DNA from: Oribacterium parvum ACB1
GTDB taxonomy: Bacteria; Bacillota; Clostridia; Lachnospirales; Lachnospiraceae
NCBI RefSeq assembly: GCF_000238055.2
Contig: NZ_KE148312.1
Coordinates: 1,236,501 to 1,300,500, forward strand
Reading direction: 5' to 3'
Length of the DNA stretch: 64,000 nt
Part shown: positions 6,946 to 59,623 of the stretch, piece after piece
How the letters are laid out: each line of letters starts with the position of its first letter
Position numbering within the stretch: position 1 is the stretch's first letter
Notes under the pieces: model-generated
What the model was told of the DNA's origin: nothing
Seen by the model: the letters and a program-made list of their open reading frames with translations, nothing else
The model's database searches: none
Position numbers and translations under genes: made by a program

Positions 6946-7242
6946 GGACTGTAGAAAGAGTTTTGGTTTTTCGTGCAGTTGTAGGTCTGAATTCGGGGTA
7001 ATCTGAGCCCGTCAGCACTTGCTGAAAGCGAGCGTAAGCGACGCTTGAAGCTTAGTACTGCTAAGGGGGTACCTTTTCTTTAGAAAAGTACCCCCTGTAC
7101 GCAGACCAACTTCTTTCAGAAGTTGCTTTGCAAAGCAAAGTGAGCAGTGGTTAACAAAAAACCACTGCTCAGTCAAGGCGAAGTTAGCGAGAGCGTGCCC
7201 CGGATTTAGACCTACACTGCAGAAAAGAACTTTCTACAGTCC
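6946..7242 (+). repeat. Interspersed structured element, copy 1 (expanded form)
   Basis: Largest of four related elements. Outer arms 6946-6958 and 7230-7242 pair perfectly (GGACTGTAGAAAG), followed inward by a second paired block (6981-6998 with 7197-7214). Conserved core pieces are GCACTTG at 7015-7021, hairpin 7026-7046 (arms AAGC/GCTT, GUAA loop), GCTTAGTACTG at about 7050-7060, and AGCGAGAGCG at 7186-7195. Unlike the other copies, about 125 bases holding several extra hairpins are inserted before the 3' core. A T-run (7244-7249) after the outer arm means the whole could also end transcription between the convergent glycosyltransferase and hydrogenase genes. Identity is unknown. Confidence 0.8.
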
Positions 7243-7247
7243 GTTTT

Positions 7248-8753
7248 TTAATTCTTAACAAGTGGCGCAGGCGAAGCCTGAGACATCGTGTTCTCCCTCA
7301 TCATGCTGAACTGATCCATGGGATAGTTCTTCAGATTGTCCAATACCTTTCTGGTATCCGCTTCTTCCATCAGGCTTTCTCTAGCCTTCTTAATCTCACT
7401 CTCCGCCTTATGTCTGGAAGGTCCACCCACACAGCCGCCTTCGCAAGCCATGCCTTCGATAAAATCCTCCGGAAGCTTGCCGACCTTTAAAAGGGAAAGT
7501 GCAGTGACACAGGCTTTCCCGCCGGAGCAGGCACGAAGCTTAATATTGGTGGTATCTTCGCCTCTTTCCCGCATGCATTCCATAACGGCATTGGCAACAC
7601 CGCCGGAGCTTGCAAAGCCCTTACCCCAGAGGGAGGCTTCCTGATATGCCTTTACTTCCGGCTCCATGCTGATGTCTTTGGAACGTAACAAGGAAGTAAA
7701 TTCTCCGAAGGAGAGTACATAATCCGCATTTCCTTCGATTCCCATCTCTTGTGACTCCGACTTCTTTGCCATGCAGGGTCCGATAAAGACGGTGATACAA
7801 CCCGGATGAGTCGCTTTTAAGTAGCGGGAAACGGCTGCCATGGGAGAAATAGTTTGGGACATATTTTCATGATACTGATCCGGAAAATGTCTCTTTAAAA
7901 GGTGGATAAATGCCGGGCAGCAGGAGGTAGTCATCTTCTTTCCTTCTTTTCTTGCTTCCGACCACTCAAGAGCCTCGTAAGCTGCCGTCATGTCTCCGCC
8001 CAGTCCTACTTCCACCATATCGGTAAATCCCAGCTTCTTTAAAGCGGTTCGGATAGAGCCCATGGAAATGTCTTTTCCGAATTGCCCTTCCGTTGCCGGA
8101 GCACACATCGCAAAGACTTCTTTTCCGGTCTGAATTGCTTCAATAACATTCAGAATATAGGTTTTTGTGGAAATGGCACCGAAGGGGCAGGAGTGTACAC
8201 ACTGTCCGCAGCGGATACAGCGCTCATCATCGATAACACAAAGTCCGTTCTCATCATAGGTAATGGCATTGACCGGACAGGCCTTTTTACAGGGACGGGT
8301 GAGCTGCGCAATAGCACTGTAGGGACAGGCCGAGGCACAGAGCCCGCACTCTTTACATTTCATTGGATCAATGTGTGCACGCTGGTCGGTCATGGTGATT
8401 GCGCCGAAATGACAGCTGTTCTGGCAGGCTTTGCCGAGACACAGACGGCAGTTGTCCGTTACGGAGTAGGAAGAAATGGGACACTCTTCACAAGCCGGGT
8501 CGATAACCTGAATAACATTGTTTGACTGCCTGTGCGGATTCGCATTTTCATTGCAGGCCAGACGCACTCTTCTACGCAGTATTTCTCTTTCCTTATATAC
8601 ACAGCAGCGGAAGATTGCCTTCGGTCCCGGAGAAATCTCCCGAATCAGCTTTTCTGTACTCTCTTGATTAACGTTGTTTTCCCATGCAAGTCTTGCAAGA
8701 CCTTCAATTACCCTGTGTTTCAGGGGGATAAAACCCTTATCATTGGTTACCAT
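7248..8753 (-). CDS. [FeFe] hydrogenase, group B-like monomeric form
   Basis: Cytoplasmic iron hydrogenase, 501 residues, interconverting protons and H2 with electrons from ferredoxin-like clusters. Cys-rich N-terminal motifs provide iron-sulphur sites (CRLCLGKAC, CKECGLCASACPYSA, CIRCGQCVHSCPFGA). The three H-cluster signatures follow: L1 TTSCCPAFI near residue 275, L2 IGPCMAKKSE near 328 and L3 EGMACEGGCVGG near 435. Ala-Phe after TSCCP instead of the Val-Trp of classic group A enzymes points to group B. The AAGGAG ribosome-binding site supports the start. No maturation genes (hydE, hydF, hydG) are nearby. Exact physiological partner is unknown. Confidence 0.88.
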   Translation of the reverse strand: MVTNDKGFIPLKHRVIEGLARLAWENNVNQESTEKLIREISPGPKAIFRCCVYKEREILRRRVRLACNENANPHRQSNNVIQVIDPACEECPISSYSVTDNCRLCLGKACQNSCHFGAITMTDQRAHIDPMKCKECGLCASACPYSAIAQLTRPCKKACPVNAITYDENGLCVIDDERCIRCGQCVHSCPFGAISTKTYILNVIEAIQTGKEVFAMCAPATEGQFGKDISMGSIRTALKKLGFTDMVEVGLGGDMTAAYEALEWSEARKEGKKMTTSCCPAFIHLLKRHFPDQYHENMSQTISPMAAVSRYLKATHPGCITVFIGPCMAKKSESQEMGIEGNADYVLSFGEFTSLLRSKDISMEPEVKAYQEASLWGKGFASSGGVANAVMECMRERGEDTTNIKLRACSGGKACVTALSLLKVGKLPEDFIEGMACEGGCVGGPSRHKAESEIKKARESLMEEADTRKVLDNLKNYPMDQFSMMRENTMSQASPAPLVKN

Positions 8754-9008
8754 AGCGTTTCTCCTTATAAACCATAGACTCTGCTCTTTCAGGGGCGCAC
8801 CCTGTCAACTCGGAGGTAGTATAACATATTTTTAACAAAGTGTTGTTCTTTTTCCGAAAATGCCTTTCCGCGCTTATCCAAGACCTGCAGACAGCCGATA
8901 AACAATTGCAGGGATGTTTTTTGTTCGCGTGCAATGATTTAGAAAAGAGAGATATGGCTGAGTGAAGCGAAGTCTCTTGTGAATTAGTGTATGAGAGAGG
9001 GAGAGCTT
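8754..9008. other. Divergent intergenic region between hydrogenase and unknown gene
   Basis: Must carry promoters for both directions. On the minus strand a TATACT box (complement of AGTATA near 8817-8822) lies upstream of the hydrogenase, but I find no good -35. Near the plus-strand gene a small hairpin (8956-8974) resembles the core hairpin of the interspersed element family. Confidence 0.4.
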
Positions 9009-10472
9009 ATGTCGCTAATGGATATTATTTTCGGAGAATCCGAAGAGGGCAGTCCTCTGAGTGAAGAGGAGATGATTTTAAAGCCGGTACGTGTTCTTGG
9101 CGTAACAGGGGAAAAAATTACAACCGTGAGCATCGGAGAAAGCTTGGATATCGTACAGGAAAAGGAAGAAGGACTGATTCGTTTGGTTCAGCGAAATGAG
9201 AGGAATGAGGAGATACGAAGCCTTATGAGCTGTCCTTATCCTCAAAATGCGGATGCCAGAAAAGAGCTTGTGGATATGATGACATCCGTAAAGCTCGATA
9301 TTGCCAATGCTTATCTAACGGGAAGAGAGTGTATTCGAATTCCAAGAAGTAAATACGAACTTTTTATTTACATGAGAAGACGTCCTACGATTCCGATTGA
9401 TATGAATAAATTAAGCAGAGAATTGTCTTCCGGTGAGGCACGGGAAAATGTGGGGATGTTTCGCTCCTTTATGGAAAAAAACCCGCGTTTAAATATTTAT
9501 GCGTCAGTGGATTCTCTTGCCATGGATACGGCGTATCGTATTTTGAAACAGGAGTTTAAGGCCTTGAGCAATGTGCGCTTTATTCCGCTGGATAATCCGA
9601 AGAAAAAGGAAATCAGCTGGGATGATCCGCGGATTCAGGAGAGTTTACGTTATACCCCGAACGTCGCCTCTATCGGACTGGGAATAAGCGGTGGAGAAAA
9701 GCCGCAATATGGTCTGGAACTTCTGAATGAGGACATTACTTCCGTAGTGATGAAGGCCTCCTTATTGGGGCACCACAGTTGCAATATTCGTGAATGTATG
9801 ATTGATGCCCAGGCGGTGGGCCATGCTAAAGCGATGTGGGAACTGGGAACAAAACGGGGAAAGAGTCCTGAATTCATTCAGAAAACAATAGAGGACCTGG
9901 CTTTTGAAGATGCCTGCTATCGTATTTCGGAGAGCAGTGCGAGAGCCATTATTGAGCATGCACGGCAAAGAGGTTTTTGTGAAGGAGAGGACATCGGGCT
10001 GATTCGGGTTCCTGTTTTAGACAGATTTTTACTTTTGAATCTGTTCAGGCAGGCGGATGACGGTTTCTTGGTCTATGAGGAGTCGAAAGGCTTTCAATAT
10101 TATAAGGATGTGACCGGAAAGCTGGTCATTCAGTTTGGATGGACAAAGGACGGATTTTGGTATATTGCTCCTCCGGATAAGGGGGAGCGTGAAATTCGTG
10201 CCGATGCGGCTCAGGTCATGCTGGAAGGAAAATATCTGAAAGCCTTACAAAAAATTTTGAAATCCAATCGAAATCGTTCTGTAAGCGGTGCTTTTGCAAA
10301 GCTCAGAGAATTTATTGAATCCTATCAGAAACTGGGTATGGGATTAAATGAGCAGCAGGAATGTATCCGTACTGCAAGAGATTATTTCGAAGGAGAGGAT
10401 ATGGAAGAAATCATGATGGTAATCGAGGAGATATTGTCTACACACTCCTTGTATGAAAACTTCGGTTTCTAG
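9009..10472 (+). CDS. Uncharacterised soluble protein, 487 residues
   Basis: I do not recognise a family. The ATG at 9009 was preferred over 8991 because the AGGGAGAG run sits just before it. The product has no signal peptide or membrane helix and no obvious enzyme motif. It is acidic at the N-terminus (DIIFGESEEGSPLSEEE), has a basic patch IYMRRRPTIPIDMNK, and a C-terminal acidic helix. It is followed by an intrinsic terminator, so it is a single-gene unit divergent from the hydrogenase. It could be a lineage-specific housekeeping protein; no function is claimed. Confidence 0.7.
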   Translation: MSLMDIIFGESEEGSPLSEEEMILKPVRVLGVTGEKITTVSIGESLDIVQEKEEGLIRLVQRNERNEEIRSLMSCPYPQNADARKELVDMMTSVKLDIANAYLTGRECIRIPRSKYELFIYMRRRPTIPIDMNKLSRELSSGEARENVGMFRSFMEKNPRLNIYASVDSLAMDTAYRILKQEFKALSNVRFIPLDNPKKKEISWDDPRIQESLRYTPNVASIGLGISGGEKPQYGLELLNEDITSVVMKASLLGHHSCNIRECMIDAQAVGHAKAMWELGTKRGKSPEFIQKTIEDLAFEDACYRISESSARAIIEHARQRGFCEGEDIGLIRVPVLDRFLLLNLFRQADDGFLVYEESKGFQYYKDVTGKLVIQFGWTKDGFWYIAPPDKGEREIRADAAQVMLEGKYLKALQKILKSNRNRSVSGAFAKLREFIESYQKLGMGLNEQQECIRTARDYFEGEDMEEIMMVIEEILSTHSLYENFGF

Positions 10473-10479
10473 ATTTTTT

Positions 10480-10514
10480 AAGGTGATGCAGGAAAGAACG
10501 GCATCACCTTTTTA
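10480..10514 (+). terminator. Intrinsic terminator after the unknown gene
   Basis: Perfect 10-bp stem AAGGTGATGC/GCATCACCTT with an 11-base loop followed by TTT; it lies directly after the 9009-10472 gene. Confidence 0.85.
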
Positions 10515-10555
10515 AAGAGAGTGAAAATTCGCTTTACTCAGGTGGAAAGGGCATT

Positions 10556-12199
10556 ATGAAGGAAGAACGAAAGAAAATCATTTCTTTAATTTCCGTGGGA
10601 GCGGTGCTTCTTTTCCTTGTGGTGGCCTATTTTACAACGACAGAGGATACGGTGCAGGAAAGTTTTTGGTCTTTGCTTCCTCCGCTGATAGCGATTGTGC
10701 TTGCGCTCGGTACGAAGGAAGTGTACAGCTCCCTTTTTATAGGCATTCTCTCAGGAGGACTGCTCTTTAGCGGATTCAGTTTTGAGGGAAGTATCCGGCA
10801 TATTTTTATGGACAGCATTATTCCTGTGCTCAGTACCTCCGCCAATGTGGGAATCATTTGTTTTCTTGTGATTCTGGGAATGATGGTACAGTTAATCAAT
10901 AAGACGGGAGGCTCTCGAGCCTTTGGAGAATGGACCAAGGGCGTGATTGAGACAAGAAGCGGAGCCATGCTTGCTACAGTGGCGCTAGGCTGTCTCATCT
11001 TTATTGACGACTATTTTAACTGTCTTACCCTAGGCTCGGTCATGCGGCCTGTAACGGACAAACACAGAATCAGCAGAGCGAAGCTTGCTTATATTATTGA
11101 TACCACGGCAGCGCCTATATGTATCATTGCTCCCATTTCCTCCTGGGCCGCAGCTGTTTCGGGTTTTGTGGAAGGGGAGGATGGGATGAAGATTTTTTTA
11201 GAGACCATTCCCTATAATTTTTACGCTTTGCTTTCTATTTGTATGATGCTCTTCCTTATTATATTGAAGGTGGATTTTGCTTCGATGTGGGTTCACGAAA
11301 GGAATGCGGAGGAAAAAGGAGATTTATTTACAACTGCGGAAAGACCTTACGGAGAAGGGGAAGAGGATAAAGGGAATAAAGGGAAAACAGGAAGCATTCC
11401 GGATATGCTTGTTCCCATTTTTTTACTTATTCTATCCTGTATTATCGGCTTGATTTACTCCGGCGGCTTCTTTGCGGGGGCTGATTTTATCACTGCTTTT
11501 TCCCATTCCGATGCACCTACCGGTTTGGTGCTCGGTTCTTTTATGGCACTTGTAATCAGCCTCATCTATTATTTATCAAAAAAAGCCATTTCTTTTCAAG
11601 AAGCGATGAACTGCCTGCCCGAGGGCTTTAGGCAAATGGTACCTGCAATCCTGATTCTTACCTTTGCTTGGAGCTTAAAAGCTATGACAGACAGCCTTGG
11701 CGCAAAGGAGTTTGTTTCTGAACTGGTGGAAGGAAGAGCGGACACTATGCTTTCTTTCCTTCCGAGCTTTGTATTTCTTATCGCCGTAGGGCTCTCTTTT
11801 GCAACAGGAACTTCATGGGGAACATTCGGTATCTTGATTCCTATCGTGGTGGGGGTTTTTGATAAATCGGATTACAACATGATGATTATTTCTATTGCTT
11901 CCTGTATGGCGGGAGCGGTTTGCGGAGATCACTGTTCTCCTATTTCCGATACGACGATTATGTCTTCAGCGGGAGCGCAGTGCGTGCATTTGAACCATGT
12001 TAGTACGCAGCTTCCTTATGCCATTTTGGTAGCCTTGGTATCCTTTTTTGCCTATATTATGGCAGGGTTTATAAAAAATCCGTGGGTCTCCTTTTCGGCG
12101 GCTGCCATTCTGCTTTTTTTCATTCTATTGCAAATAAAACATATTCAGATAGCGAGAGAAGAGGAAAGACAGAGAAAAAAAAGAAGGGTATTACGTTAG
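10556..12199 (+). CDS. nhaC: Na+/H+ antiporter, NhaC family
   Basis: Polytopic membrane protein of 547 residues with about 11-13 hydrophobic segments, exchanging Na+ (or coupling amino-acid and malate exchange in some relatives) for protons. Family hallmarks are the paired acidic residues in FIDDYFNCLTLGSVMRPVTD around residues 150-170 and the C-terminal motif GDHCSPISDTTIMSSAGA. A hydrophilic acidic loop near residues 245-280 separates the halves. It is transcribed alone, between two terminators. Substrate is family-level inference; a lactate/malate antiporter is an alternative. Confidence 0.88.
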   Translation: MKEERKKIISLISVGAVLLFLVVAYFTTTEDTVQESFWSLLPPLIAIVLALGTKEVYSSLFIGILSGGLLFSGFSFEGSIRHIFMDSIIPVLSTSANVGIICFLVILGMMVQLINKTGGSRAFGEWTKGVIETRSGAMLATVALGCLIFIDDYFNCLTLGSVMRPVTDKHRISRAKLAYIIDTTAAPICIIAPISSWAAAVSGFVEGEDGMKIFLETIPYNFYALLSICMMLFLIILKVDFASMWVHERNAEEKGDLFTTAERPYGEGEEDKGNKGKTGSIPDMLVPIFLLILSCIIGLIYSGGFFAGADFITAFSHSDAPTGLVLGSFMALVISLIYYLSKKAISFQEAMNCLPEGFRQMVPAILILTFAWSLKAMTDSLGAKEFVSELVEGRADTMLSFLPSFVFLIAVGLSFATGTSWGTFGILIPIVVGVFDKSDYNMMIISIASCMAGAVCGDHCSPISDTTIMSSAGAQCVHLNHVSTQLPYAILVALVSFFAYIMAGFIKNPWVSFSAAAILLFFILLQIKHIQIAREEERQRKKRRVLR

Positions 12200-12266
12200 A
12201 ACTTTGCGACAAGCCCGATGAAATGTCGGGTTACTTTACTCTATTTCCGGAACTTATTATTCAATC

Positions 12267-12338
12267 CACTAAAAGAATTACATAAACTAAAAGAATTAAA
12301 TAAATTAAAAGAACTAGATCAACTTGAAGAATTGAATA
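12267..12338 (+). repeat. Degenerate 18-bp tandem repeat, four units
   Basis: Units begin at 12267, 12285, 12303 and 12321, each close to AACTAAAAGAATTAAATA. In one frame they read as LKELNK-like hexapeptides. Confidence 0.75.
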
Positions 12339-12406
12339 AACCGGAAACATGAAATGGGATAAAATATTAAATAAAATAAAAATATCAAATATTTTATTTA
12401 TTCATT

Positions 12407-12449
12407 AAAACGCCTTAAGTAGTTTTTGAAACTGCTTAGGGCGTTTTTG
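12407..12449. terminator. Long intrinsic terminator before the fatty-acid operon
   Basis: A stem of about 15-16 pairs with G-U wobbles (AAAACGCCTTAAGTAGTT against AACTGCTTAGGGCGTTTT) is followed by a T-rich end. It isolates nhaC from the downstream operon. Confidence 0.8.
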
Positions 12450-12477
12450 AAACTACATATCTTAAAAAAATATTTCA

Positions 12478-12506
12478 TTGATTTTAATTATATAGACCAT
12501 TATAGT
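12478..12506 (+). promoter_or_regulatory. Predicted housekeeping promoter of the fatty-acid operon
   Basis: TTGATT at 12478-12483, a 17-base spacer and TATAGT at 12501-12506 match the sigma-70/SigA consensus at 4/6 and 5/6. It lies 130 bases upstream of acpP in AT-rich DNA. I could not identify a convincing FabT- or FapR-type operator. Confidence 0.55.
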
Positions 12507-12636
12507 ATATCTGCTAAATAGTTAAATATATTTTATCTTTTCCGGAAGAGAGAACACTGCTGACCGAAGTATAGGAAAGAATAATCGGTTATTCGTTACT
12601 CCCTAAATCATCCGGAATATTGTGAAAGGAGAACAA

Positions 12637-12867
12637 ATGGAATTCGAGAGATTAAAAGAGATTATTGTAGACACTTTGGCTTGTGATGAGGAGAAGGTTA
12701 CTTTAGATGCGGACATGGAGAAGGACTTGGAAATTGATTCCCTTTCCTTGGTGGAACTCCACATGGCTTTAGAGGATGAGCTGTCTGAGACCATTCCGGA
12801 CGGAGAAATCGGAAAGCTGCATACCGTAAAGGACATTCTCGATTATGTAAACAGTATAAAGGGCTAA
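12637..12867 (+). CDS. acpP: Acyl carrier protein
   Basis: 76-residue acidic carrier of growing acyl chains in type II fatty-acid synthesis. Ser35 in the DSL motif (residues 34-36) is the phosphopantetheine attachment site. ATG 12637 was chosen because AAAGGAG at 12624-12630 is ideally placed. First gene of the operon, directly ahead of accD. Confidence 0.95.
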   Translation: MEFERLKEIIVDTLACDEEKVTLDADMEKDLEIDSLSLVELHMALEDELSETIPDGEIGKLHTVKDILDYVNSIKG

Positions 12868-12932
12868 GCGGCCAGGCAAGAAACTTTTATGAATAGCCGG
12901 ATTTCATGTTGAAGAACAGTTCAGGAGGGAGT

Positions 12933-13805
12933 ATGCAGTCACCGATTAAAACCTTGGTAGATATGGTGAAGGACAGGGATTTAAAGCAAAAAGCACTTTC
13001 CGATAGAGTGGGCAGTACAGCGCCGATAAAAATCCCTTCTGCCTTTATTGCCTGTAAAAAGTGTGGAAGAAGGGCGCTTCGCGCTCGCTGGGAGGAGCAT
13101 CTTTTCGTATGTCCTAACTGCGGAAGCTATGCGGCGGTTGGCGCTTATTACCGTTTGGAAAAGCTTTATGATTCGGGAACTTTTCAGGAATTGGATAAGG
13201 ATATTGCAGTAAGGGATCCCTTGGATTTTCCGGACTATAAAGAGAAGGTAAAGGAACTGGAAAAAAAGACCGGTTTAAAAGAAGCAGTAGTTTCTTCCAA
13301 AGGAAAAATCGGAGGCATTCCTGTGGTAGCTTTGGTCATGGACAACCGTTTTTTAATGGGGTCCATGTCTCAAGCGGTCGGCGAGAAAATTACAAGGGGA
13401 ATTGAAGAAGCGGATAGACTTCGTTGTCCTCTTATTATTTTTTCGGCATCCGGTGGAGCAAGGATGCAGGAGGGAATCTTCAGCCTTATGCAGATGGCGA
13501 AAACCTCTGCGGCAGTGGAATTGTTTTCCGAGCACGGCGGACTCTTTATCAGCGTTTTAACCCATCCTACGACAGGAGGGGTTACGGCGAGCTTTGCCAC
13601 TTTAGGAGATATTACCTTGGCGGAGCCGGGAGCACTCATCGGCTTTGCGGGACCGCGCGTCATTGAGCAAACCATCAATCGTAAGCTTCCGAAGGGGTTC
13701 CAAAAGGCGGAGTACTTGGAAAAACATGGTTTTATTGATGCTATTGTGGAACGAAAAAATATGAGAGAGAGTTTAATGCAGATTCTTTCTCTTCATCAGG
13801 AGTAG
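12933..13805 (+). CDS. accD: Acetyl-CoA carboxylase carboxyltransferase subunit beta
   Basis: Beta subunit of the carboxyltransferase that moves CO2 from biotin to acetyl-CoA to make malonyl-CoA. The zinc ribbon is visible as Cys41, Cys44, Cys60 and Cys63. It is followed by the crotonase-like fold with SASGGARMQEGIFSLMQM and the GGVTASFA region. The start at 12933 follows CAGGAGGGA; length is 290 residues, normal for the family. It works with AccA next door. The biotin carrier (accB) and biotin carboxylase (accC), which the complex also needs, are not encoded in this window. Confidence 0.95.
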   Translation: MQSPIKTLVDMVKDRDLKQKALSDRVGSTAPIKIPSAFIACKKCGRRALRARWEEHLFVCPNCGSYAAVGAYYRLEKLYDSGTFQELDKDIAVRDPLDFPDYKEKVKELEKKTGLKEAVVSSKGKIGGIPVVALVMDNRFLMGSMSQAVGEKITRGIEEADRLRCPLIIFSASGGARMQEGIFSLMQMAKTSAAVELFSEHGGLFISVLTHPTTGGVTASFATLGDITLAEPGALIGFAGPRVIEQTINRKLPKGFQKAEYLEKHGFIDAIVERKNMRESLMQILSLHQE

Positions 13806-13885
13806 AAACAGACGGTATTGTTTAGTCTTTTAAAGGATTTTGTTCGCAAAGCGTGAGGTTTTTGCCGGAAGCGGAAAGGAAGAAT

Positions 13886-16106: not shown

Positions 16107-17015
16107 ATGCGATTAGACGAGATGCTGGGGATTCGTTATCCGATTATCCAGGGAGGAATGGCAAATATTGCAACGGGAAGCTTTGCTGCAGCTTGCTCCG
16201 AAGCGGGAGCACTGGGACTCATTGGTACCGGAGGAATTCGCGAGGCGGAGGGACTGAGAAAGGAAATCCGAATTTTACGGGAAAGAACGGAGAAGCCCTT
16301 TGGCGTGAACCTGATGCTCATGAATCCGGAAACGGAGAAGATGGTGCAAATCTGTATAGAGGAGAAAGTACCTGTAGTCACTACAGGTGCGGGAAATCCC
16401 GGTATCTACATGGAAGCGCTGAAGACAGCGGGCTGTAAAGTCATTCCGGTTGTAGCTGCGCCGATCCTTGCGGAAAGACTGGAGAAGCAGGGAGCGGATG
16501 CCGTGATTGCGGAGGGATGTGAGTCCGGAGGTCATGTCGGGGAAATGACAACGATGTGCCTGGTGCCGCAGACGGTAGACAGTGTGAATATCCCTGTCAT
16601 CGCAGCGGGAGGCGTTGCGGATAAGAGGCAGCTAAAGGCGGTTTTTGCACTGGGGGCTGCCGGTGCGCAAATCGGAACCGCGCTTCTTGCGGCGGAGGAG
16701 TGTCCTATTCATGAGAATTATAAGGATGCGATTTTAAAGGCAAGAGGTTCAGACACCGTGGTTACCGGAAGAATCGCCGGAGTACCGGTTCGAATCTTAA
16801 AGAATCAGATGAGTAGAGAATACCTCCGACAGGAGAAGGCCGGAGCGGAGAAGATGGAACTCGAAAAGTTCACCTTGGGTTCCTTAAGAAGAGCGGTCTT
16901 TGAAGGAGATACAAAAACCGGCTCCCTTATGGCAGGACAGACCTGCGGACAGGTGGGGGAAATCCGACCGGTTGCCGAGATTTTAGCCGATATATGCTCC
17001 GGAATCATAGATTGA
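16107..17015 (+). CDS. fabK: Enoyl-ACP reductase II (FMN-dependent)
   Basis: Flavoprotein that reduces the enoyl-ACP double bond in the last step of each elongation cycle; it replaces FabI and is insensitive to triclosan. A nitronate-monooxygenase-like TIM barrel is seen: the N-terminal YPIIQGGMANIATG, the catalytic-type His in CESGGHVGE near residue 140, and phosphate-binding loops PVIAAGGVADKRQ and GAQIGTALLAAEE. 302 residues, standard for FabK. The ribosome-binding site GAGGAAGG precedes ATG 16107. Its position between fabH and fabD matches the streptococcal/clostridial fab order. Confidence 0.93.
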   Translation: MRLDEMLGIRYPIIQGGMANIATGSFAAACSEAGALGLIGTGGIREAEGLRKEIRILRERTEKPFGVNLMLMNPETEKMVQICIEEKVPVVTTGAGNPGIYMEALKTAGCKVIPVVAAPILAERLEKQGADAVIAEGCESGGHVGEMTTMCLVPQTVDSVNIPVIAAGGVADKRQLKAVFALGAAGAQIGTALLAAEECPIHENYKDAILKARGSDTVVTGRIAGVPVRILKNQMSREYLRQEKAGAEKMELEKFTLGSLRRAVFEGDTKTGSLMAGQTCGQVGEIRPVAEILADICSGIID

Positions 17016-17196
17016 TTTTTGCACCTTCGTTGCGGTTCCCTACGCCTCTCTTCAAAAGGCGCTCTCGCTCGACCTCGATAGAGCGGATACTAAGCATCAA
17101 ACTTCGCGTGCGCTCGTTTTCTGCAAGTACCGGCGTCTTCACACGCTTTTTCAGAGAGGTGTAGGGCACCGCAACTAAAGAAATAATCAAAAATCA
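17013..17196 (-). repeat. Interspersed structured element, copy 2, inside the fatty-acid operon
   Basis: Core lies on the minus strand. Long arms pair across the element: 17029-17051 with 17153-17175, and outer bases 17013-17021 with 17188-17196. Core pieces read on the minus strand are GTACTTG (17124-17130), hairpin 17099-17119 (arms AAAC/GTTT around GA-GC-GCAC-GC-GA), CTTAGTATCCG (about 17084-17094) and CGAGCGAGAGCG (17060-17071). The core is almost collinear with copy 4 although the arms differ. The outer arm overlaps the fabK stop codon. Confidence 0.85.
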
Positions 17197-17357
17197 AAGT
17201 AACATGATAAGAGAGAAGTATAGGGAAGATTGTGAGGAAAAGGCAAGAATTATGGCAGAGGATATAGAAGCCTAAACTAAGTAAGAGGATGTGAGAAGCA
17301 TAGGGTAGGTCTGATTGGCATAATCCGGGCATACTCAAATATCGGAAAGGGGAAGTG

Positions 17358-20471: not shown

Positions 20472-20620
20472 AGGAAACGACCCTCTATACCCTTACGGGC
20501 AAAAGCGTTTGGAGGCCTCGGCACTTGATGAACACAAGCGTAGCGAAGTGTGAATCTAGTACCGCTAGGCCGGAACCGAGCGAGAGCGTCTTTTGCCGGA
20601 AGGGCTAGGGGGCGTTTCCT
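20472..20620 (+). repeat. Interspersed structured element, copy 3, between fabF and fabZ
   Basis: Arms 20472-20505 and 20590-20620 pair with a few mismatches (AGGAAACG against CGTTTCCT at the ends, CAAAAG against CTTTTG at the core). Core pieces are GCACTTG at 20521-20527, hairpin 20532-20551 (arms ACAC/GTGT, GUA loop), CTAGTACCG at about 20556-20564 and CGAGCGAGAGCG at 20577-20588. This is the most compact copy. It would be transcribed as part of the fatty-acid operon mRNA. Confidence 0.85.
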
Positions 20621-45915: not shown

Positions 45916-45956
45916 ATTCTAAATTTTCTTTTGGGACTTTTTTTACAGCCCCTTTA

Positions 45957-51666: not shown

Positions 51667-51706
51667 AGGGGGATTGGATATATATCAAAATTTGAAAGAA
51701 CGCTTG

Positions 51707-53536
51707 TTATCTTCCGATTGCCAGCAAGGTTTCCAAGGTATCATTTAAGGTAGTCATAAGTCTTGCGGCTGCATTGTAAGAGGACTGGAAGGTCATCATA
51801 TTTGCCGCTTCTTCATCAAGACTGACTCCGGAAAGCTGGTCTCTGGAGGTATTCAGACCGTCTAAGACGGTCTTATTGATGGTATGCGCATTGTTGTTGG
51901 CATAGGAATCGGTAGCCAAAGTAGTGGATACATTGTTCATATAGTCCCCATAACTGGTTTTGGTATTGTTCATTTTCATCATGGGGCTAATCAACTGCTC
52001 AAGCATCTCCAAAACCGTATCGGTTGTATCCCCCTGATTGGTTAAGGTGGGACCGTTTCGGAAACCGTGGGTTCCTACATGCGTGGTTCCGTTTACCCAG
52101 CCTTTGGAGATTCCGATATTTGCTGCAGTCACATCATCCGGAATATTTCCTCCGGTCGGACCGGCTGTTTTATCTCTATTAATCAGTAAAACATGGTTCG
52201 GGTTTGTCGGATTCGGTGTTACAGTACCGTTATAGTCTGTATTTCCCTTCTTATTAACTGCATTCATATTTTTGGTAAAGGTTTCTGCAAGGAGATCCAA
52301 CTTACCCATATAGAAGTCATAGCTGTAGGAAGTCATCTCGTTGCTTGCCTTTAAATCAGCTAAGTTGATTACGCCTCCTGCATGAGAGAGCTGACGAATA
52401 TCACAGGAAGAAAGCATATCCAAGTTAGCCTGTACACTGCCTGAAGCAAAGCGAACCTTCGAGGTATCCGTAGTAAAGCTGTCCGGTGTACCGACCCTCT
52501 TTTTGAAACCGGTAAACTTCAGCTGTGTATTTAAAGGATTGTCCTCCGAGTACGGTTGTGCGGGTAAGGCGGGGGTCGCAAGCTCCACTTTTCCTACATT
52601 GTAATGTCTTCCCGTAGCATCCTTTAAATCCGCATCAATAGAACCGTTTACCAAGGTGATTTTCTTTATTTCCGTGTTGCCGCCCGTGCTGTCCCGGTAA
52701 ACAAGATTGACACGGATATCCTCCGGCCAATCGGAGCGTCCTGTGACATTTCCCGCGGAATCATAGTTGTAAATACGATAGCGGGTCGTCGGCGGGGTGG
52801 CCGAGGTATACTCCTCGGAAAAAGTTTCCACCTCAATGGGAATATACTTGGAAAGCTCATCCAAACGCTTATTTCTCTCATCCATTAATTCCAGTGAAGG
52901 ATGTTTCATAAGCTGGTTCTTTTTGATTCTTCGGTTTAAGTCTCCGATTTCTTGTACTAAAGTATTTATTTTTTGAATGGCACCGTTTTCGGAGGTTCCG
53001 GTTCCATCTATTTTACGAAATTCATTCTTTTCCGCCTGAATAATGCCCTCTGCGGCAGAATTTAAAAGCTGTGTCATAGCCTGGACTCTGCCCATGAATT
53101 CTCCTTCATAGACCGGGTCCTGTATCTTAGAGGGATCTTGCATGTTGAGAAGAGATTTTTGGATATCATCAAAGGAGGCGCGGAGACCGTTTATCTTTGT
53201 TTCATCTAAAAATCTGGACAACGCTTTTAAAGACTCTCCGAGTTCCTGAGAATAGGATGCCCTTCCATTTTGGGCACGATATTGCTTATCCAGGAATTGA
53301 TCACGAAGTTGTCGCATTCCGTCCATTGCAACACCGTATCCCACATTCGTTTCGTTCGAGTTGGTATAAAACGAAGTCGGATTTTTATAGTTGATGGACG
53401 ATGTTTTCATATCCTGCCGTGTATAGCCTTCGGTGTTCATATTCGCAAGGTTATGTCCGACTACATCCAGTTTTTTCTGATTCATCCGCATTGCGGACAA
53501 TGCCGTATCGAAGCCGGCAAAAGTCGCTCTTATCAT
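51707..53536 (-). CDS. flgK: Flagellar hook-associated protein 1
   Basis: 609-residue junction protein between hook and filament. The N-terminal flagellar rod signature reads FAGFDTALSAMRMNQKKLDVVGHNLANMNTEGYTRQ; the C-terminal SGVSLDEEAANMMTFQSSYNAAARLMTTL matches the paired coiled coil. AAGGAGGAG precedes the ATG. Last gene of the flgM-flgN-flgK transcript. Confidence 0.95.
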   Translation of the reverse strand: MIRATFAGFDTALSAMRMNQKKLDVVGHNLANMNTEGYTRQDMKTSSINYKNPTSFYTNSNETNVGYGVAMDGMRQLRDQFLDKQYRAQNGRASYSQELGESLKALSRFLDETKINGLRASFDDIQKSLLNMQDPSKIQDPVYEGEFMGRVQAMTQLLNSAAEGIIQAEKNEFRKIDGTGTSENGAIQKINTLVQEIGDLNRRIKKNQLMKHPSLELMDERNKRLDELSKYIPIEVETFSEEYTSATPPTTRYRIYNYDSAGNVTGRSDWPEDIRVNLVYRDSTGGNTEIKKITLVNGSIDADLKDATGRHYNVGKVELATPALPAQPYSEDNPLNTQLKFTGFKKRVGTPDSFTTDTSKVRFASGSVQANLDMLSSCDIRQLSHAGGVINLADLKASNEMTSYSYDFYMGKLDLLAETFTKNMNAVNKKGNTDYNGTVTPNPTNPNHVLLINRDKTAGPTGGNIPDDVTAANIGISKGWVNGTTHVGTHGFRNGPTLTNQGDTTDTVLEMLEQLISPMMKMNNTKTSYGDYMNNVSTTLATDSYANNNAHTINKTVLDGLNTSRDQLSGVSLDEEAANMMTFQSSYNAAARLMTTLNDTLETLLAIGR

Positions 53537-53576
53537 AACTCCTCCTTGAAAAAGAGAAGCATCCTAAAAAGAATGC

Positions 53577-54014
53577 TTATACCCTTCTATCCCTAAATTT
53601 TTTCGCTTCGGTCTTTCCCTCGAGCTTTTGGGAAAGATCGATTAAACGTACCTGCATGATTCTATCGGCAGTTTCTTTCGACTGTATAAAGCGATGCAGA
53701 TTCTTTTCCAGATTTTCGATGCTTTCCGCCCATTCTTCCTTCTCCTCATCCGGAGCTTTTTCCAAAATGGAAGGAAGAGAGGCGGGAACCAATCCCAGTT
53801 CTTTTTGTAATTTTTCCCGTTTCTTCTCTAAGCCCTTGAAACGGAGTAAAGTGGGCTGTGCCTCTGTCACCAATGCGTCAATTTTATCCTTTGCATTGTT
53901 TGAAGCGGATATACTTAGGGAATCTTCGAGGTCACAAAGAGAAGAGAGCAGAGCGGACAACTCCGTATAAACGGGGCGCAGCTCATCCCACTTTTTTTTA
54001 CATTCAACAGTCAT
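53577..54014 (-). CDS. flgN: FlgN-like flagellar export chaperone
   Basis: 145-residue helical protein. Its position between flgM and flgK and its coiled-coil, FlgN-type layout (YTELSALLSSLCDLEDSLS, then KLQKELGLVPASLPSIL) indicate the export chaperone for FlgK and FlgL. Sequence conservation in this family is low, so context matters. GGAG ribosome-binding site present. Confidence 0.78.
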   Translation of the reverse strand: MTVECKKKWDELRPVYTELSALLSSLCDLEDSLSISASNNAKDKIDALVTEAQPTLLRFKGLEKKREKLQKELGLVPASLPSILEKAPDEEKEEWAESIENLEKNLHRFIQSKETADRIMQVRLIDLSQKLEGKTEAKKFRDRRV

Positions 54015-54036
54015 GATATTTTCTCCAATAAAAACT

Positions 54037-54348
54037 TTAGTCCTTATAGCCTAAGAGTTTTTCTGCAATGCGTCTTGCATTGGGGCGATAGGCACCGGAT
54101 TGTACCTGTTGATGAAGCTCAGCCACTTTCTTGTCCGAGGCACCGACTCTGATGGAATCGGCAGTTGCCTTACTAAGGGCTGCTACAAAGCTTCTGTCAT
54201 CGATTTTGTTTCCGCCGGAAAGAGATAAGGTATCCGTATCCGGTTTTTTGGCCTTTTCAACCTGCACAGCGGGTTTCTTGGCTAAGGACGCCTGACGAGT
54301 CTGATAATCTACGCGGGTGTTAAAATCAGGTCTGATTGAAAAATTCAT
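54037..54348 (-). CDS. flgM: Anti-sigma-28 factor FlgM
   Basis: 103 residues. Disordered N-terminus, then the sigma-binding C-terminal pattern DKKVAELHQQVQSGAYRPNARRIAEKLL that defines FlgM. Exported when the hook is complete, releasing sigma-28. AGGAGG precedes the ATG. First gene of the flgM-flgN-flgK unit. Confidence 0.88.
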   Translation of the reverse strand: MNFSIRPDFNTRVDYQTRQASLAKKPAVQVEKAKKPDTDTLSLSGGNKIDDRSFVAALSKATADSIRVGASDKKVAELHQQVQSGAYRPNARRIAEKLLGYKD

Positions 54349-54621
54349 TTTTCCTCCTATAAACGGCGTTTTTCTCCTCTATTCTCACCGTTTTCTTTTG
54401 CAATTATTCTAGGCAAAGCATCCGCCCACTCCCTCGGGAAAGATTCTTGCACAGGGGAAATAGATGGGGTATACTTCCTTTAAAAGAAAAATTTTCATAG
54501 GAAATACCCTTCTACCCCTACTATATCGGCGAGAAATTTGTCGATATAAGTAATGTACAGTTGAAATACGAGATTAAATTTCGTTTTTTTATTAGAACAA
54601 TTTTACACTTTGGGAGGGAAA
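54349..54621. promoter_or_regulatory. Divergent control region between flgM and the FliK-like gene
   Basis: An inverted pair at 54523-54547 (ATATCGG ... TCGATAT) presents a GCCGATAT box on the minus strand and GTCGATAT on the plus strand, each resembling a sigma-28 -10 element. No matching -35 is convincing at the 11-base spacing on either strand. Confidence 0.4.
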
Positions 54622-56028
54622 ATGGCAAACATTTTACAAGTAACATCTGCCCCCGTGACTCCGGATCCGTCAGTGCAACATGGTCGTGTGGCTCCGGATA
54701 TGTCTGTTAAAAATCCGGTAAATCCATCTGCGGTTAACCGGGCAGATGGGCAGGAGACAGGACAGACAGGAAGTTCCACGGGAGAAGGACGGTTTTCTGC
54801 GGTCGATTTCGAAGGAAATTACGCGGCCTTTTTGAGAGAGCTCACGGACAATGTGAACCTTCCGAAAGAGATGGAAACCGTACTTTTTGGGGAAGGCGCT
54901 GTGGCGCTAAGCCGAAATAAGGAAGAAATCAGTGAAGTTTTAAAAGAACTTTTTTCTTCGATGGAAATGGACAGTCCGGAAGAGTTAAAGGATTTTTTAC
55001 AGAATCAACAGCAGGCACAGATTAAGTTTTCCGGGAATCTGTTTAACAATTTAAGGGGAATGTTACAAGGTAACATTTCTTCCTCTTTGCGTACCGCAAT
55101 TTTGAACTTTGCAAAAAGCTATAACGACTACAGTTCGTCCGGGCATTTTTTAGCGCAACTGGAAACCATTGCGGGCGACATTGATAAACTCCTCTTACCT
55201 TCCTTTCAAGGGGAATTCGAGGATTTGATATCGCAGATGAATTTTAAAGGGGGCATGGGAGAGGATAAAGCGAATTCTTCCTTAATAAATGGTCAGATTA
55301 TTCCTTTCTTATCCAACTATATTTCCCGTACCCATGATTACGGGGCTGTGCGTAATGCAGCAATTCTCTTTGTGCTTTATGCTGTAAAATACGAAAACGG
55401 ATCGGAAGAACTTCTTGCAAAACAAAAAGAGGCACTATTGAATAATTCCGATTTTCGATTGCTTTTTAAGGGAGATCCGGAGGAAGCTTTCCAAGAGAGC
55501 TTAAAGAATCTGGAGATGAAAACAGGAAATAATTTTACAAAGCTCTTCAACCAATTTCTCCTTGCGGGAGCGGAGGGAAAGACGGGAACGGAAAATATTT
55601 CTCAGTTTCAAGATGTCTTAAGAGGGCTTTTACTGAATGAAAGTGTATATATGCCTTTGCAACATCTTGTTTTACCCTTCCGATACGGAGAGAAAGATGT
55701 GATGAGTGAGATGTGGGTGGATCAGGATGCGAAGGATATGAATGGAGGAAAGCTGACCAAGATGCTTTTAAAATTCAATATCCAGAACTTGGGAAGTTTT
55801 GAAATTATTTCCGGTATTACCGACATGAGAGTGGATATGAGCCTGTTTATGCCGGAAGATCTGATGGAGAAGCAGAAGGATGTGGAAGGAGTTGTAAACA
55901 CGATTTTACGGCAAAACGGTCTTTCTGTTGCGAATCTGGGAATATATCAAAAAACAAGAGATTTTAAATTGCAGGAAGTCTTCCCGGGACTTAAAGATGC
56001 GGAGAAGGGACTAAACGTAAGAATTTAG
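54622..56028 (+). CDS. FliK/YlqG-like flagellar protein
   Basis: 468 residues. A low-complexity N-terminus (TSAPVTPDPSVQHGR...GQETGQTGSS) typical of exported hook-length proteins precedes helical regions; the C-terminal LLKFNIQNLGSFEIISGITDMRVDMSLF with LMEKQKDVEGVVNTILRQNGLSVA resembles the FliK C-terminal domain. The next gene encodes an FlhB-like domain, the same pairing as B. subtilis ylqG-ylqH. ATG 54622 follows GGGAGGG. Confidence 0.7.
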   Translation: MANILQVTSAPVTPDPSVQHGRVAPDMSVKNPVNPSAVNRADGQETGQTGSSTGEGRFSAVDFEGNYAAFLRELTDNVNLPKEMETVLFGEGAVALSRNKEEISEVLKELFSSMEMDSPEELKDFLQNQQQAQIKFSGNLFNNLRGMLQGNISSSLRTAILNFAKSYNDYSSSGHFLAQLETIAGDIDKLLLPSFQGEFEDLISQMNFKGGMGEDKANSSLINGQIIPFLSNYISRTHDYGAVRNAAILFVLYAVKYENGSEELLAKQKEALLNNSDFRLLFKGDPEEAFQESLKNLEMKTGNNFTKLFNQFLLAGAEGKTGTENISQFQDVLRGLLLNESVYMPLQHLVLPFRYGEKDVMSEMWVDQDAKDMNGGKLTKMLLKFNIQNLGSFEIISGITDMRVDMSLFMPEDLMEKQKDVEGVVNTILRQNGLSVANLGIYQKTRDFKLQEVFPGLKDAEKGLNVRI

Positions 56029-56098
56029 ACAGCTTTTTTCCCTTTTAAATAGAGAAAAGACTGCCGATAGAATAAGCAGTGCGTAGGAGAAGGAGACA

Positions 56099-56506
56099 AT
56101 GGCGGATTTCAGTAAACTCATGGAGAGAAAAGCAGCGGCGCTGAAATATGACAGTGAGAAAAATGGTGCACCCATGATTGTTGCGGCAGGAATGGGGCAT
56201 ATGGCGGAAAAAATCACGGAAACTGCCATGAAAGCAGGTGTGCCGGTGTATGAGGATGACAGTTTGGCGTCCTTGCTTACCCAGATGAAGCTGGGGGCAG
56301 AAATTCCGGAAGAGCTTTTTCAGGCAATTGTAGAGATCTATATTTATTTTTTAGGCTTTACGGGAGATGCAGAAAAAGATAAGGAAGAACAAGAAAAAAG
56401 AAGAGAGGAAAGACGGATTAGAGAGCTCCAAAAGAACGAAGCAGGGCAGGAGGAACAGTCCGGACAAGAGAAAGAAACGAAGGTACGGGAAAGACTCTCT
56501 TCTTAA
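56099..56506 (+). CDS. FlhB C-terminal-domain-like protein (YlqH/FhlB)
   Basis: 135 residues. KYDSEKNGAPMIVAAGMGHMAEKITETAMKAGVPVYEDDSLASLL matches the cytoplasmic C-terminal domain of the flagellar export switch FlhB, without the NPTH autocleavage site and membrane part. It probably substitutes for the released FlhB fragment in substrate switching. An added Glu/Arg-rich tail (residues 97-135) is unusual. AAGGAG ribosome-binding site. Confidence 0.88.
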   Translation: MADFSKLMERKAAALKYDSEKNGAPMIVAAGMGHMAEKITETAMKAGVPVYEDDSLASLLTQMKLGAEIPEELFQAIVEIYIYFLGFTGDAEKDKEEQEKRREERRIRELQKNEAGQEEQSGQEKETKVRERLSS

Positions 56507-56545
56507 GGTTTGCCTAAGGACAGGCATAGAAGAGCGAGGTTTAAA

Positions 56546-57940
56546 ATGAAGGAGCAGAGTATACGGAAGAGTTTTGTTCTCATAGTATGTCTTTTTTTTG
56601 TACTGTTTTTCCGGGAAAATGGTTTTGCGGCATCCTCTCCGATACGAAATATTCGGGTGAAAGTGCAATCCCGCCTGGAGCCCGGAGATAGTCCGGGAGA
56701 TATCCGAATCGAGGGAGCGGAGGCAGAAGCGCATGAAGTTGTTGCCATGGCAAAAGGGAGTAACTTTACCATTACAAAGGCGGAATGGGGTAGCGGGAAA
56801 AAGTCCTATGTAACCGTAGGTGATGAGCTTAAGGTAGTGCTGGTGCTTACTCCCGTGGATGTTACAACGAACTTCTTTCAGGCCGCCTATCACTCCGGAA
56901 CGTTCCATATAGAAGGCGGTTCTTACGTTTCCGCGAAACGAGAAGGAGATGATCTTCATCTTACTGTAAAACTGAAAGCGGTACAGGGAAGATACGATGC
57001 GCCTGTTTCCGTAGACTGGAATGCAAGAACACTCGGGCAGGTTTCCTGGACTCCCGGACAATCGGATTCACACAGCTACCAGGTTCAGCTTTTCCGAAAC
57101 GGAAATCGTATTTTTGAGCTGGCAAGACTGAATGCAACACAATACAATTTTTACCCCTATATGACGAAGGCGGGAAATTATACGGTACGGGTAAAAACGA
57201 TTCTGAAAAATGACAAAGAAAAAAATTATGCAGGAAGCAGTACATACAGCGAGTCTTCGGAGCTGGTAATTGACGATAGAGATGTATCGGATGGAAAAGG
57301 AAGAGTCGGAGACAAGGTTGTCAGCGGAACAGAAAAGAAGGTCGGTTGGGATAAGGATGGAAATGAGTATGTCTATCGCTTACCAAGCGGAGCACTTCTT
57401 ACCGGCTGGGGACATATCGGCGGCTACTGGTATTATTTTCGACCGGACGGGAAAATGGCAAAAAGATGGGAGAATGTAAACGGAAAGTGGTATTTCTTCC
57501 ATGAAAACGGAGACATGGCTGTCGGATGGATTAAAGACAATAACAACTGGTATTACCTTGTTCCGGATAACGAAGCCGTAAACGGACTGGTTTCCGGAGA
57601 GATGCTTGGGCAGGGTTGGCACATCATAAGCGGCAGATACTATTACATGGAAGAAAGCGGCAGAATGCATAAAGGCTGGCTACTTGATCAGGGGAGATGG
57701 TATTACTTAAATGAGCTGGAGAATTCGCTGGAAGGCGTCATGTTCAGCGGTTTTATGGTACGGAATGAGAAGACCTATTATTTGAACAGTAACGGAGCTA
57801 TGGAAACGGGCTGGGTCTCCATAGACGGAAACTGGTATTATTTTCAGAAAGAAAGCGGGGAAATGCTTAGGAATACCTGGGTAGACGGTTTCCCCTTAAA
57901 TGCGGACGGTATATTAGATGAAAACAGCTTTAGGCGATAG
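56546..57940 (+). CDS. Secreted protein with choline-binding-type repeats, first of two
   Basis: 464 residues. Signal peptide 1-28 ends near GFAAS. Residues about 30-235 form beta domains, the second like fibronectin type III (SVDWNARTLGQVSW to AGNYTVRVKTI). From about 285 on, six to seven aromatic repeats (GYWYYF, GKWYFF, NWYYL, RYYYM, RWYYL, NWYYF spaced about 20 residues) match the choline-binding/glucan-binding repeat family that holds proteins to phosphocholine-decorated teichoic acid. LicD genes 4-6 kb away could supply that decoration. ATG 56546; ribosome-binding site weak. Confidence 0.82.
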   Translation: MKEQSIRKSFVLIVCLFFVLFFRENGFAASSPIRNIRVKVQSRLEPGDSPGDIRIEGAEAEAHEVVAMAKGSNFTITKAEWGSGKKSYVTVGDELKVVLVLTPVDVTTNFFQAAYHSGTFHIEGGSYVSAKREGDDLHLTVKLKAVQGRYDAPVSVDWNARTLGQVSWTPGQSDSHSYQVQLFRNGNRIFELARLNATQYNFYPYMTKAGNYTVRVKTILKNDKEKNYAGSSTYSESSELVIDDRDVSDGKGRVGDKVVSGTEKKVGWDKDGNEYVYRLPSGALLTGWGHIGGYWYYFRPDGKMAKRWENVNGKWYFFHENGDMAVGWIKDNNNWYYLVPDNEAVNGLVSGEMLGQGWHIISGRYYYMEESGRMHKGWLLDQGRWYYLNELENSLEGVMFSGFMVRNEKTYYLNSNGAMETGWVSIDGNWYYFQKESGEMLRNTWVDGFPLNADGILDENSFRR

Positions 57941-58099
57941 ATGAAGAAGGAACCCTTCTTATCCGCTGAACTTGCTTATAGTTTTTTCCCTTTCGTCGAT
58001 GTAAAGAAGAAGGAAACGAAAGAGATACGGCTCTTTTAGACAAGCTGAATGAGCCGTGCTAAAAGGCAAGGGACCTGCCGGATAATGAAGGAGAAGGAT

Positions 58100-59404
58100 A
58101 TGAAAAAGGGGAAGAAGAAGGCTTTAGGAACGTGGGAACTTCGGGTTTTGGAGTTTACGGAAAAGCTGATTCTGCTTCTCCTTTTAATTTGGCTGATTTT
58201 AATTCCTTTCAGTAACAATGCAAGGGCGGCAGAATCGACGGTCATTGAGACGATTAAAGTCAATTTTGCAAGTCGGTTTGGAGATCAGGAGGAAATCGTT
58301 CCCCCTGATGTTACTGTCTCTGACAACGATGTCGAGATTACGGATGTGCATTACCGAAAGGACTATGATTACTGGGTTCCGGGGCAGAAGGTAAGAGTGG
58401 AAATCCTTTTGCATGCAAAAGAGGGAAAGGTATTTTCCGCTGTGATTAACCGCTCCAAAGTAGGAGTCAGCGGTGCAAATTTCGTAGAAGCAAAGCTCAT
58501 AAAAGGGAATAATCTGTTGGTCAAGGCGGATTATATCCCGATGATGGTTCTTGGTAATGTAAGCTATGCAGCTTGGAATGGTGCACACTCGATGGGAATC
58601 TGGGATAAAGTTCGTTTTGCTCCATCCTATACGGTAGCACTCTATGGAGATAATAAGCTGGTACAGGAATTTAAAGGGGTCAAAACCAGTTTTTTTGACT
58701 TCGGAAAATATATGAAGGACAAGAGGAAAACCTATTACTACGAAGTCAAGGCAGCACCTCTTACGGAAGAGCAGAAGAAATATTTAAAAGAAGGACAATA
58801 TGTCATAGCCACAACAGATGAGGTGCCGGAGCCTGCAGGAAGCGGACCTGAGCTTGAACCGGAGCAAAGCATTGAAGACTATTTAAGCGAAGGAAATGGA
58901 GTAGAGCCCAATTCTTGGCGCTATGTGGGGAGACGCTGGTACTTTTTGGATGCATCCTGTCGAGTCAAGAAAGGCTGGCTGGAAAGAAGCGGAGAATGGT
59001 TTTTCTTAAATCCGAAGAGCGGTGCAATGGAGACCGGTCTCGTAGAGACAGGAAAAGATAAATTTGCTTACTTCCGGGATGACGGAGTGATGCTAAGCAA
59101 TACTTGGGTGCATTACGGACCGGATGTGTGGTATCTCTTCGGGCAGGACGGATACATGATAAACGGTTGGTGGAAGAACAGCCGGGGAGATTGGTTTTAC
59201 TTGAATCCCGAATTCAAAGGAAGGATGCATATCGGTTGGTTAAAATATAAAGAAGACTGGTACTACCTTGATAAAAACGGAGCCATGCTAAGAGGCTTCC
59301 AGAATATCAACGGAAAAACCTATTTCTTTGTCGAAGACGGGAAAATGCTTAGCAATACCGATGTGGAAGGAAGACATTTAGGCGCCGACGGAGCCGCAAC
59401 ATAG
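58100..59404 (+). CDS. Secreted protein with choline-binding-type repeats, second copy
   Basis: 434 residues, paralogue of the preceding gene: a cytoplasmic basic start, signal helix (KLILLLLLIWLILIPF), matching N-terminal domain (VIETIKVNFASRFGDQEEI against the paralogue's PIRNIRVKVQSRLEPGD), a second beta domain, a linker, and five to six aromatic repeats (RWYFL, EWFFL, WYLFG, DWFYL, DWYYL, KTYFF). ATG 58100 follows AAGGAGAAGG. A perfect 7-bp hairpin (58028-58058, ACGGCTC/GAGCCGT) lies in the gap between paralogues. Likely a tandem duplication serving the cell surface near the flagella. Confidence 0.82.
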   Translation: MKKGKKKALGTWELRVLEFTEKLILLLLLIWLILIPFSNNARAAESTVIETIKVNFASRFGDQEEIVPPDVTVSDNDVEITDVHYRKDYDYWVPGQKVRVEILLHAKEGKVFSAVINRSKVGVSGANFVEAKLIKGNNLLVKADYIPMMVLGNVSYAAWNGAHSMGIWDKVRFAPSYTVALYGDNKLVQEFKGVKTSFFDFGKYMKDKRKTYYYEVKAAPLTEEQKKYLKEGQYVIATTDEVPEPAGSGPELEPEQSIEDYLSEGNGVEPNSWRYVGRRWYFLDASCRVKKGWLERSGEWFFLNPKSGAMETGLVETGKDKFAYFRDDGVMLSNTWVHYGPDVWYLFGQDGYMINGWWKNSRGDWFYLNPEFKGRMHIGWLKYKEDWYYLDKNGAMLRGFQNINGKTYFFVEDGKMLSNTDVEGRHLGADGAAT

Positions 59405-59417
59405 GACAGCGGCGTCG

Positions 59418-59623
59418 ATTTCATGATTTTTTTGTTTGATTTTATTGATGAAAGCCTCTTGTCTCACCTAATGAAAAAGCGTTTGGAGACGCCGGCACTT
59501 GCAGAGAACGAGTGTGAGCGAAGTTCGATGCTTAGTGTCCGTTTCGTCGGAATCGAGCGAGAGCGTCTTTTGAATAGGTGGGACAAGAGGATGATCTGCA
59601 AACATTGAAAAAAATCATGAAAT
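59418..59623 (+). repeat. Interspersed structured element, copy 4
   Basis: Arms of about 55 bases pair across the element: outer ATTTCATGATTTTTT (from 59418) with AAAAAAATCATGAAAT (59608-59623), then CCTCTTGTCTCACCTA (59455-59470) with TAGGTGGGACAAGAGG (59575-59590). Core pieces: GCACTTG 59495-59501, hairpin 59506-59526 (arms GAAC/GTTC, GUGA loop), CTTAGTGTCCG at 59531-59541 and CGAGCGAGAGCG 59554-59565. Core nearly matches copy 2. It fills the gap between the second choline-binding-type gene and the lytic transglycosylase. Confidence 0.88.

Follow-up and report, generated by a model that had tools for sequence, protein, structure and literature searches.

Four copies of a fold-back repeat in the window

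The stretch analysed here (the window) is 64,000 nucleotides of Oribacterium parvum ACB1 (Lachnospiraceae; contig NZ_KE148312.1, positions 1,236,501 to 1,300,500), in which four copies of a short structured repeat are interspersed. An earlier sequence-only reading had proposed four such copies sharing ordered core blocks; the blocks are indeed seen in all four, and the outermost paired ends lie at 6946-7242, 17012-17197, 20473-20619 and 59418-59623. The first copy (6946..7242, plus strand) is flanked by two convergent open reading frames (ORFs) and consists of arms, core and a module of three hairpins. Its core with the module spans 6992..7204, covered by rows 6992-7097 and 7119-7204 of the search with our covariance model R1, and the module (approximately 112 nt) occupies 7063..7174, with limits set by eye. 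The second copy (17012..17197, core at 17051..17153) lies on the minus strand. The third (20473..20619, core at 20498..20597) and the fourth (59418..59623, core at 59472..59574) are on the plus strand, each flanked by two co-directional ORFs; the core limits of these three copies are those of the R1 matches. The elements measure 147-206 bp, or 297 bp with the module. At E<=0.01, the R1 search of the window returned these four copies and no others, a fifth row (7119-7204, E 0.00039) being the second half of the module-bearing first copy.

All copies follow the same plan, a branched core of approximately 100 nt enclosed by long arms, which are paired inside each copy and drift from copy to copy. 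From the outside inwards, the order is long arms, a junction with a mini-hairpin of 2 bp, a stem that is short and variable, the conserved stem GGYACT/AGTRYCC with an unpaired T after it, and a variable apical stem in which tandem G-A pairs or normal pairs occupy the same place. The mini-hairpin has a covarying stem, and in 146 of 149 rows (62/62 and 84/87) its loop is GNRA. Several copies of the same genome carry the module, of approximately 110 nt, inside their core, and no gene is present inside the element. The ends of the main subfamily of this genome resemble AAGGGGCTGTAAAAA; 54 matches to them occur in the genome, and at four places both ends lie 46-121 bp apart without a core. Many main-subfamily copies show, by eye, an A-run before and a T-run after these ends. 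The earlier statement that the arms share no sequence holds among the four window copies but not beyond them, the arms of the 6946 copy being recognisably akin, by eye, to the main subfamily. A lone main-subfamily end, with no recognisable partner or core, is also found at approximately 45940-45954 of the window (G000:C1:1282440). The element is short, multi-copy, gene-less and bounded by inverted-repeat ends, as are miniature inverted-repeat transposable elements (MITEs).

Distribution and position relative to genes

The R1 model (103 positions, 30 pairs) was built from 11 copies of the window's own genome, the four of the window and seven others, four rows being entered without the module. 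Of the 80 rows at E<=1 in this genome (2.47 Mb), 58 are distinct copies (E<=6.4e-13) and the remainder second halves or weak matches; the copy count may be low because 150 of the 642 first-look candidates were scored. In the same genus, 5 of 17 genomes gave matches (135, 60, 26, 4 and 3, some of them split rows) and 12 gave none. In the same family, where up to 13 candidates were scored per genome, 111 genomes of the 299 sampled gave matches, counting the window's own. The repeat family is larger than the sequence-only reading had noted. A sample of the phylum gave matches in 5 of 398 genomes, four from the window's family and one, G671, from another family; its 6 matches could be due to horizontal transfer, or the contig may be mis-assigned. 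When named genomes were scanned with a pattern, at least 119 stretches were returned, and all 80 loci examined had an R1 match, as the pattern itself makes likely. Lachnospiraceae, Butyrivibrio or Pseudobutyrivibrio are named in 57 of the 80 locus titles; the others give broader groups or, in four cases, Selenomonadaceae, Veillonellaceae or Muribaculaceae (bin labels as deposited). A locus of Lachnospira eligens (L204) matches R1 as well.

Scanning viral contigs for a 15-base core pattern turned up 53 stretches, none of which matched R1 at E<=0.1, so that carriage by phages received no support from that one pattern; phage records gave matches of 20-31 bases only, and a plasmid search with a typed query gave 6 weak records only. 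The sequence-only reading had not recognised the family, and neither did Rfam: no family, HEARO included, matched the window at the gathering threshold, and six loci searched at E<=5 gave rRNA, tRNA and sub-threshold matches, all away from the core. An Rfam hit, which the sequence-only reading had named as a refutation, did not turn up. No description was met in the open-licence literature, a coverage that leaves most subscription papers outside. The repeats form a large, apparently undescribed family of small gene-less intergenic fold-back repeats in many related gut-type bacteria.

Relative to mechanically called ORFs (at least 90 codons), 194 of 214 copies could be placed, 68 between convergent genes, 56 in tandem gaps with the core strand and 56 against it, and 14 between divergent genes; 15 of the 214 overlap a called ORF. 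Tandem gaps thus show no strand preference, and 180 of the 194 placed copies have at least one neighbouring gene 3' end facing the element. The gaps carrying an element were 58 convergent, 96 tandem and 11 divergent, compared with 48, 319 and 84, respectively, for element-free gaps of at least 20 bp and 18, 103 and 52 for those of at least 150 bp; the elements are enriched between convergent genes. Among 1038 ORFs of 163 loci, no recurrent neighbour family was found beyond large superfamilies, the commonest being ABC ATPases and response regulators. Another short gene-end repeat, TTCTTAAC(G/A)AG beside a GC-rich hairpin, was seen at loci L327, L329, L330 and L334 and at approximately 7250-7290 of the window; it resembles a further family of terminator-like repeats.

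Covariation and mismatches in the stems

Among 65 distinct rows, 28 of the 30 core pairs change on both sides, and cells with two-sided changes number 394 for a shuffled mean of 105, a value reached in none of 500 shuffles. Sliding the partners lowers the paired cells from 85.5% to 37-43%. A reservation is that the rows are related and had been aligned by fitting them to the model. The arms are copy-specific and self-complementary, as had been claimed: the median complementarity score of a copy's own arms was 26 (127 copies) versus 7 in 379 swapped pairs, controls that include sister copies, and 69 of the 127 copies exceeded the 99th percentile of the controls. Over 150 nt the values were 32.5 and 11.5 (323 swapped pairs), with 100 of 127 copies above the 95th percentile and 35 above every control. 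In genome G016, two copies with identical 107-nt cores (L097/L098) have arms that are 75% alike, and in seven copies the match of 24-nt arms to their own partner was 0.75-0.83, compared with an average of 0.63 to the partners in other copies.

Related copies were compared at 33 loci (main subfamily and near relatives), giving 991 paired cells in three arm segments, which were placed by best match with up to 3 mismatches and could in part be misplaced. Twenty double changes keep Watson-Crick pairing and 3 do not, whereas the single changes lead to 16 G-U, 18 A-C and 33 other mismatches. Counted as distinct events, the double changes are 14 and 3, respectively, and the single changes 10 G-U, 10 A-C and 25 other. 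By a rough estimate, chance would give approximately one pairing-keeping double change; within one genome, related copies often differ by compensated double changes.

If pairing were selected on one RNA strand, G-U intermediates should far outnumber A-C, which is the same mismatch on the other strand. In core columns with at least 85% Watson-Crick, G-U or A-C, we counted 3297 Watson-Crick pairs, 73 G-U, 51 A-C and 76 others, and 38 of the 73 G-U lie at one position. A stricter column filter gave 26 G-U and 29 A-C, and the unfiltered set A3 (64 of 80 rows kept) 41 and 47. As controls, 19 unique tRNAs gave 204 Watson-Crick pairs, 16 G-U, 2 A-C and 1 other, and 97 terminator-like hairpins found by script gave 48 G-U and 20 A-C. 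The G-U excess is approximately 1.4:1 in both arms and core, far from the 16:2 of the tRNAs. According to the sequence-only reading, arms changing together were the signature of selected base-pairing; that covarying arms by themselves indicate selected RNA pairing is not supported here, since the distinct single changes are strand-symmetric and the overall ratio is approximately 1.4:1. Because this excess is so far below that of the tRNAs, upkeep of the arms at the DNA level is favoured, and it appears that the arms retain their complementarity largely in this way and not by selection on RNA alone. DNA template switching can yield compensated changes in stems (PMC8794818), and selection on folded DNA or RNA may also account for them.

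Mobility and origin of the family

The corresponding positions were compared in genome G299. The junction of the 17012-17197 copy is present there without an element, that of the 20473 copy carries a copy of another subfamily, and G299 also contains nested elements. By eye, its loci L118, L105 and L119 have an inner copy at the apex of an outer one, in up to three layers. In genome G101, a second, inverted core match was found in 9 of 11 fetched loci (eight at E<=2.6e-5, one at 8.7e-4), and these composites (L080-L090) measure 530-755 bp between AAACTCTAATTTG-type inverted ends, located in five loci. At locus L012, near an rRNA operon, the left flank is common to L026 and the right flank to L032, as if the flanks had been shuffled by recombination between copies. 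From the G299 and G101 loci and the uneven copy numbers within the genus we infer, on circumstantial grounds, movement by transposition.

A mobilising gene was searched for among three types. Y1_Tnp is present in 31 of 52 genomes (absent, e.g., in G300, G017, G087 and G270), RVT_1 in 28 of 48 (absent, e.g., in G017, G060, G087, G138 and G270) and IS110 in 27 of 48 (the window's own genome gave no match). Five genomes with 10-13 scored copies (G011, G017, G074, G087 and G270) have none of the three at the thresholds used, a limit on this absence being that draft assemblies can miss repeats and that genes can be lost later. Y1 transposases, reverse transcriptases and IS110 were thus rejected as necessary mobilisers, other transposases and tyrosine recombinases lying outside this search. 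No autonomous transposon sharing the ends was recognised among the fetched end matches, in which no systematic search was made.

Known systems resemble the family in part. ERIC, YPAL, NEMIS and Bcr1 are stem-loop repeats, ERIC being described as a single long stem-loop, and like them the present family is short, intergenic, repeated tens to hundreds of times and folded into a long stem-loop (PMC2267715). It differs from them in the branched core and its GNRA mini-hairpin, in arms that drift yet remain self-complementary, in nesting and in its spread across many genera of one family; it is set apart by description and not by sequence. REP/REPIN elements, which REP-associated Y1 transposases mobilise (PMC3116915, PMC2817692), share the high copy number, the extragenic position, the palindromic form and the lack of a gene, but copies here do not track Y1_Tnp (30 Y1 and 0 copies in G178, 0 Y1 and 26 copies in G300). 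Integron attC sites are recombination sites of little conserved sequence recognised through a folded single strand (PMC2727003, PMC11641012), and the resemblance is one of analogy; in our family, the variable arms lie on the outside and surround the conserved part. Template-switch hairpins likewise acquire compensatory stem changes from DNA replication and not via a G-U intermediate (PMC8794818), although RNA genes were studied there and a dispersed bacterial repeat here.

We consider it probable that the repeats are a family of non-autonomous, MITE-like fold-back elements whose arms are upheld largely at the DNA level. In favour are the lack of an internal gene and of a recurrent neighbour family, the range of 0 to 135 matches within one genus, the junction without an element, the nesting, the core-less hairpins with main-subfamily ends, the copies in G671, the coupled arm changes, the enrichment between convergent genes and the missing strand preference in tandem gaps. 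The branched core would be the part most likely recognised by a putative trans-acting mobilising enzyme, and the arms may stay complementary because template switching mends imperfect palindromes, because the folded DNA is under selection, or for both reasons. Arm sequence could then drift while pairing persists because complementarity is upheld in the DNA. Copies may accumulate or survive beside the 3' ends of genes, most of all where two convergent genes meet. Template switching, the enzyme and a core acting as DNA rather than RNA are what we infer beyond the observations. Several results weigh against this explanation. The searches revealed neither an exact empty site nor a target duplication nor a mobilising gene: no target-site duplication was recognised by eye in the flanks, the gap alignments of G000 and G299 gave no base-resolution empty site, the sequences being too diverged for exact ends, a second record of the L. 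eligens locus has the same surrounding genes and no empty site, and the repeated rRNA-side flank, sought as an empty site, occurs at two places, both occupied. G299 has one copy in the same orientation near the 6946 copy and two at the place corresponding to the 59418 gap, and copies at corresponding gaps for several window sites could mean a conserved local role. The unfiltered set A4 (90 rows, from loci chosen by a pattern fixing part of the stem) gave 74 G-U and 33 A-C, partly in poorly aligned apical columns. In the arms of 199 of the 214 copies, the others having short, masked or poorly paired flanks, isolated mismatches were 173 G-U, 120 A-C and 326 other (p=0.002 for G-U versus A-C) or, per copy, 71 versus 47 (p=0.034), p-values that are a guide only as rows are related. 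Finally, the GNRA loop obeys an RNA-like rule, and for this reason the core may act as DNA or as RNA.

The sequence-only reading had offered a structured RNA or a mobile element. The latter is plausible, with a MITE-like form favoured; the former, a dispersed non-coding RNA or mRNA 3'-end element whose pairing is selected in the transcript and which spread by an unspecified route, is possible, but no longer the favourite. The strict GNRA loop with its covarying stem raised our estimate of the RNA explanation to this level, and the two-sided changes in 28 of 30 pairs, the alternation of tandem G-A with normal pairs and the copies at corresponding G299 sites agree with it. It is opposed by the core G-U to A-C counts (73:51, when tRNAs give 16:2 and terminator-like hairpins 48:20), by the equality of both among distinct single changes, by the missing strand preference in tandem gaps and by the lack of an Rfam match. 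The GNRA loop had been taken as settling the RNA question, a role dropped after the G-U and A-C counts; similar mini-hairpins of DNA are very stable.

Long bidirectional terminators or REP-like gene-end hairpins, multiplied without a dedicated mobiliser, would explain the enrichment between convergent genes and the A- and T-runs around many main-subfamily copies, but termination does not need a conserved branched core, and 96 of 165 element gaps lie between co-directional genes (e.g., 20473-20619); we regard this origin as unlikely. The HEARO-like and retroelement-like origins raised by the sequence-only reading found no support: remains of HEARO/IscB omega RNA, IS200/IS605, IS110 bridge RNA, a group II intron or a retron would have a structured core in many copies, as here, but neither the window nor the core in six loci has an Rfam match and five multi-copy genomes lack Y1_Tnp, RVT_1 and IS110 at the thresholds used, which makes such remnants very improbable. 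Returning to MITE-like elements, it is rather doubtful, though worth stating, that they form a new class of mobile element recognised via folded single-strand DNA, in which the core is the enzyme's signature and any pairing arms serve. That signature would be the GNRA-type mini-hairpin, the conserved unpaired T and the tandem G-A, and elements could form their arms anew, swap them, or enter the apex of another element.

Taken together, the repeats are best seen as a new, unusually widespread fold-back repeat family, similar in type to the ERIC or Bcr1 repeats. A structured repeat that is absent from Rfam is present in over a third of the sampled genera of one bacterial family, with dozens of copies at gene ends. 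It is also a warning case, since strong covariation commonly passes for proof that an RNA is functional, and here it accompanies nearly strand-symmetric intermediates, which point to DNA, while the strict GNRA loop points to RNA. If it is true that an enzyme recognising folded DNA moves the element, this enzyme would be new.

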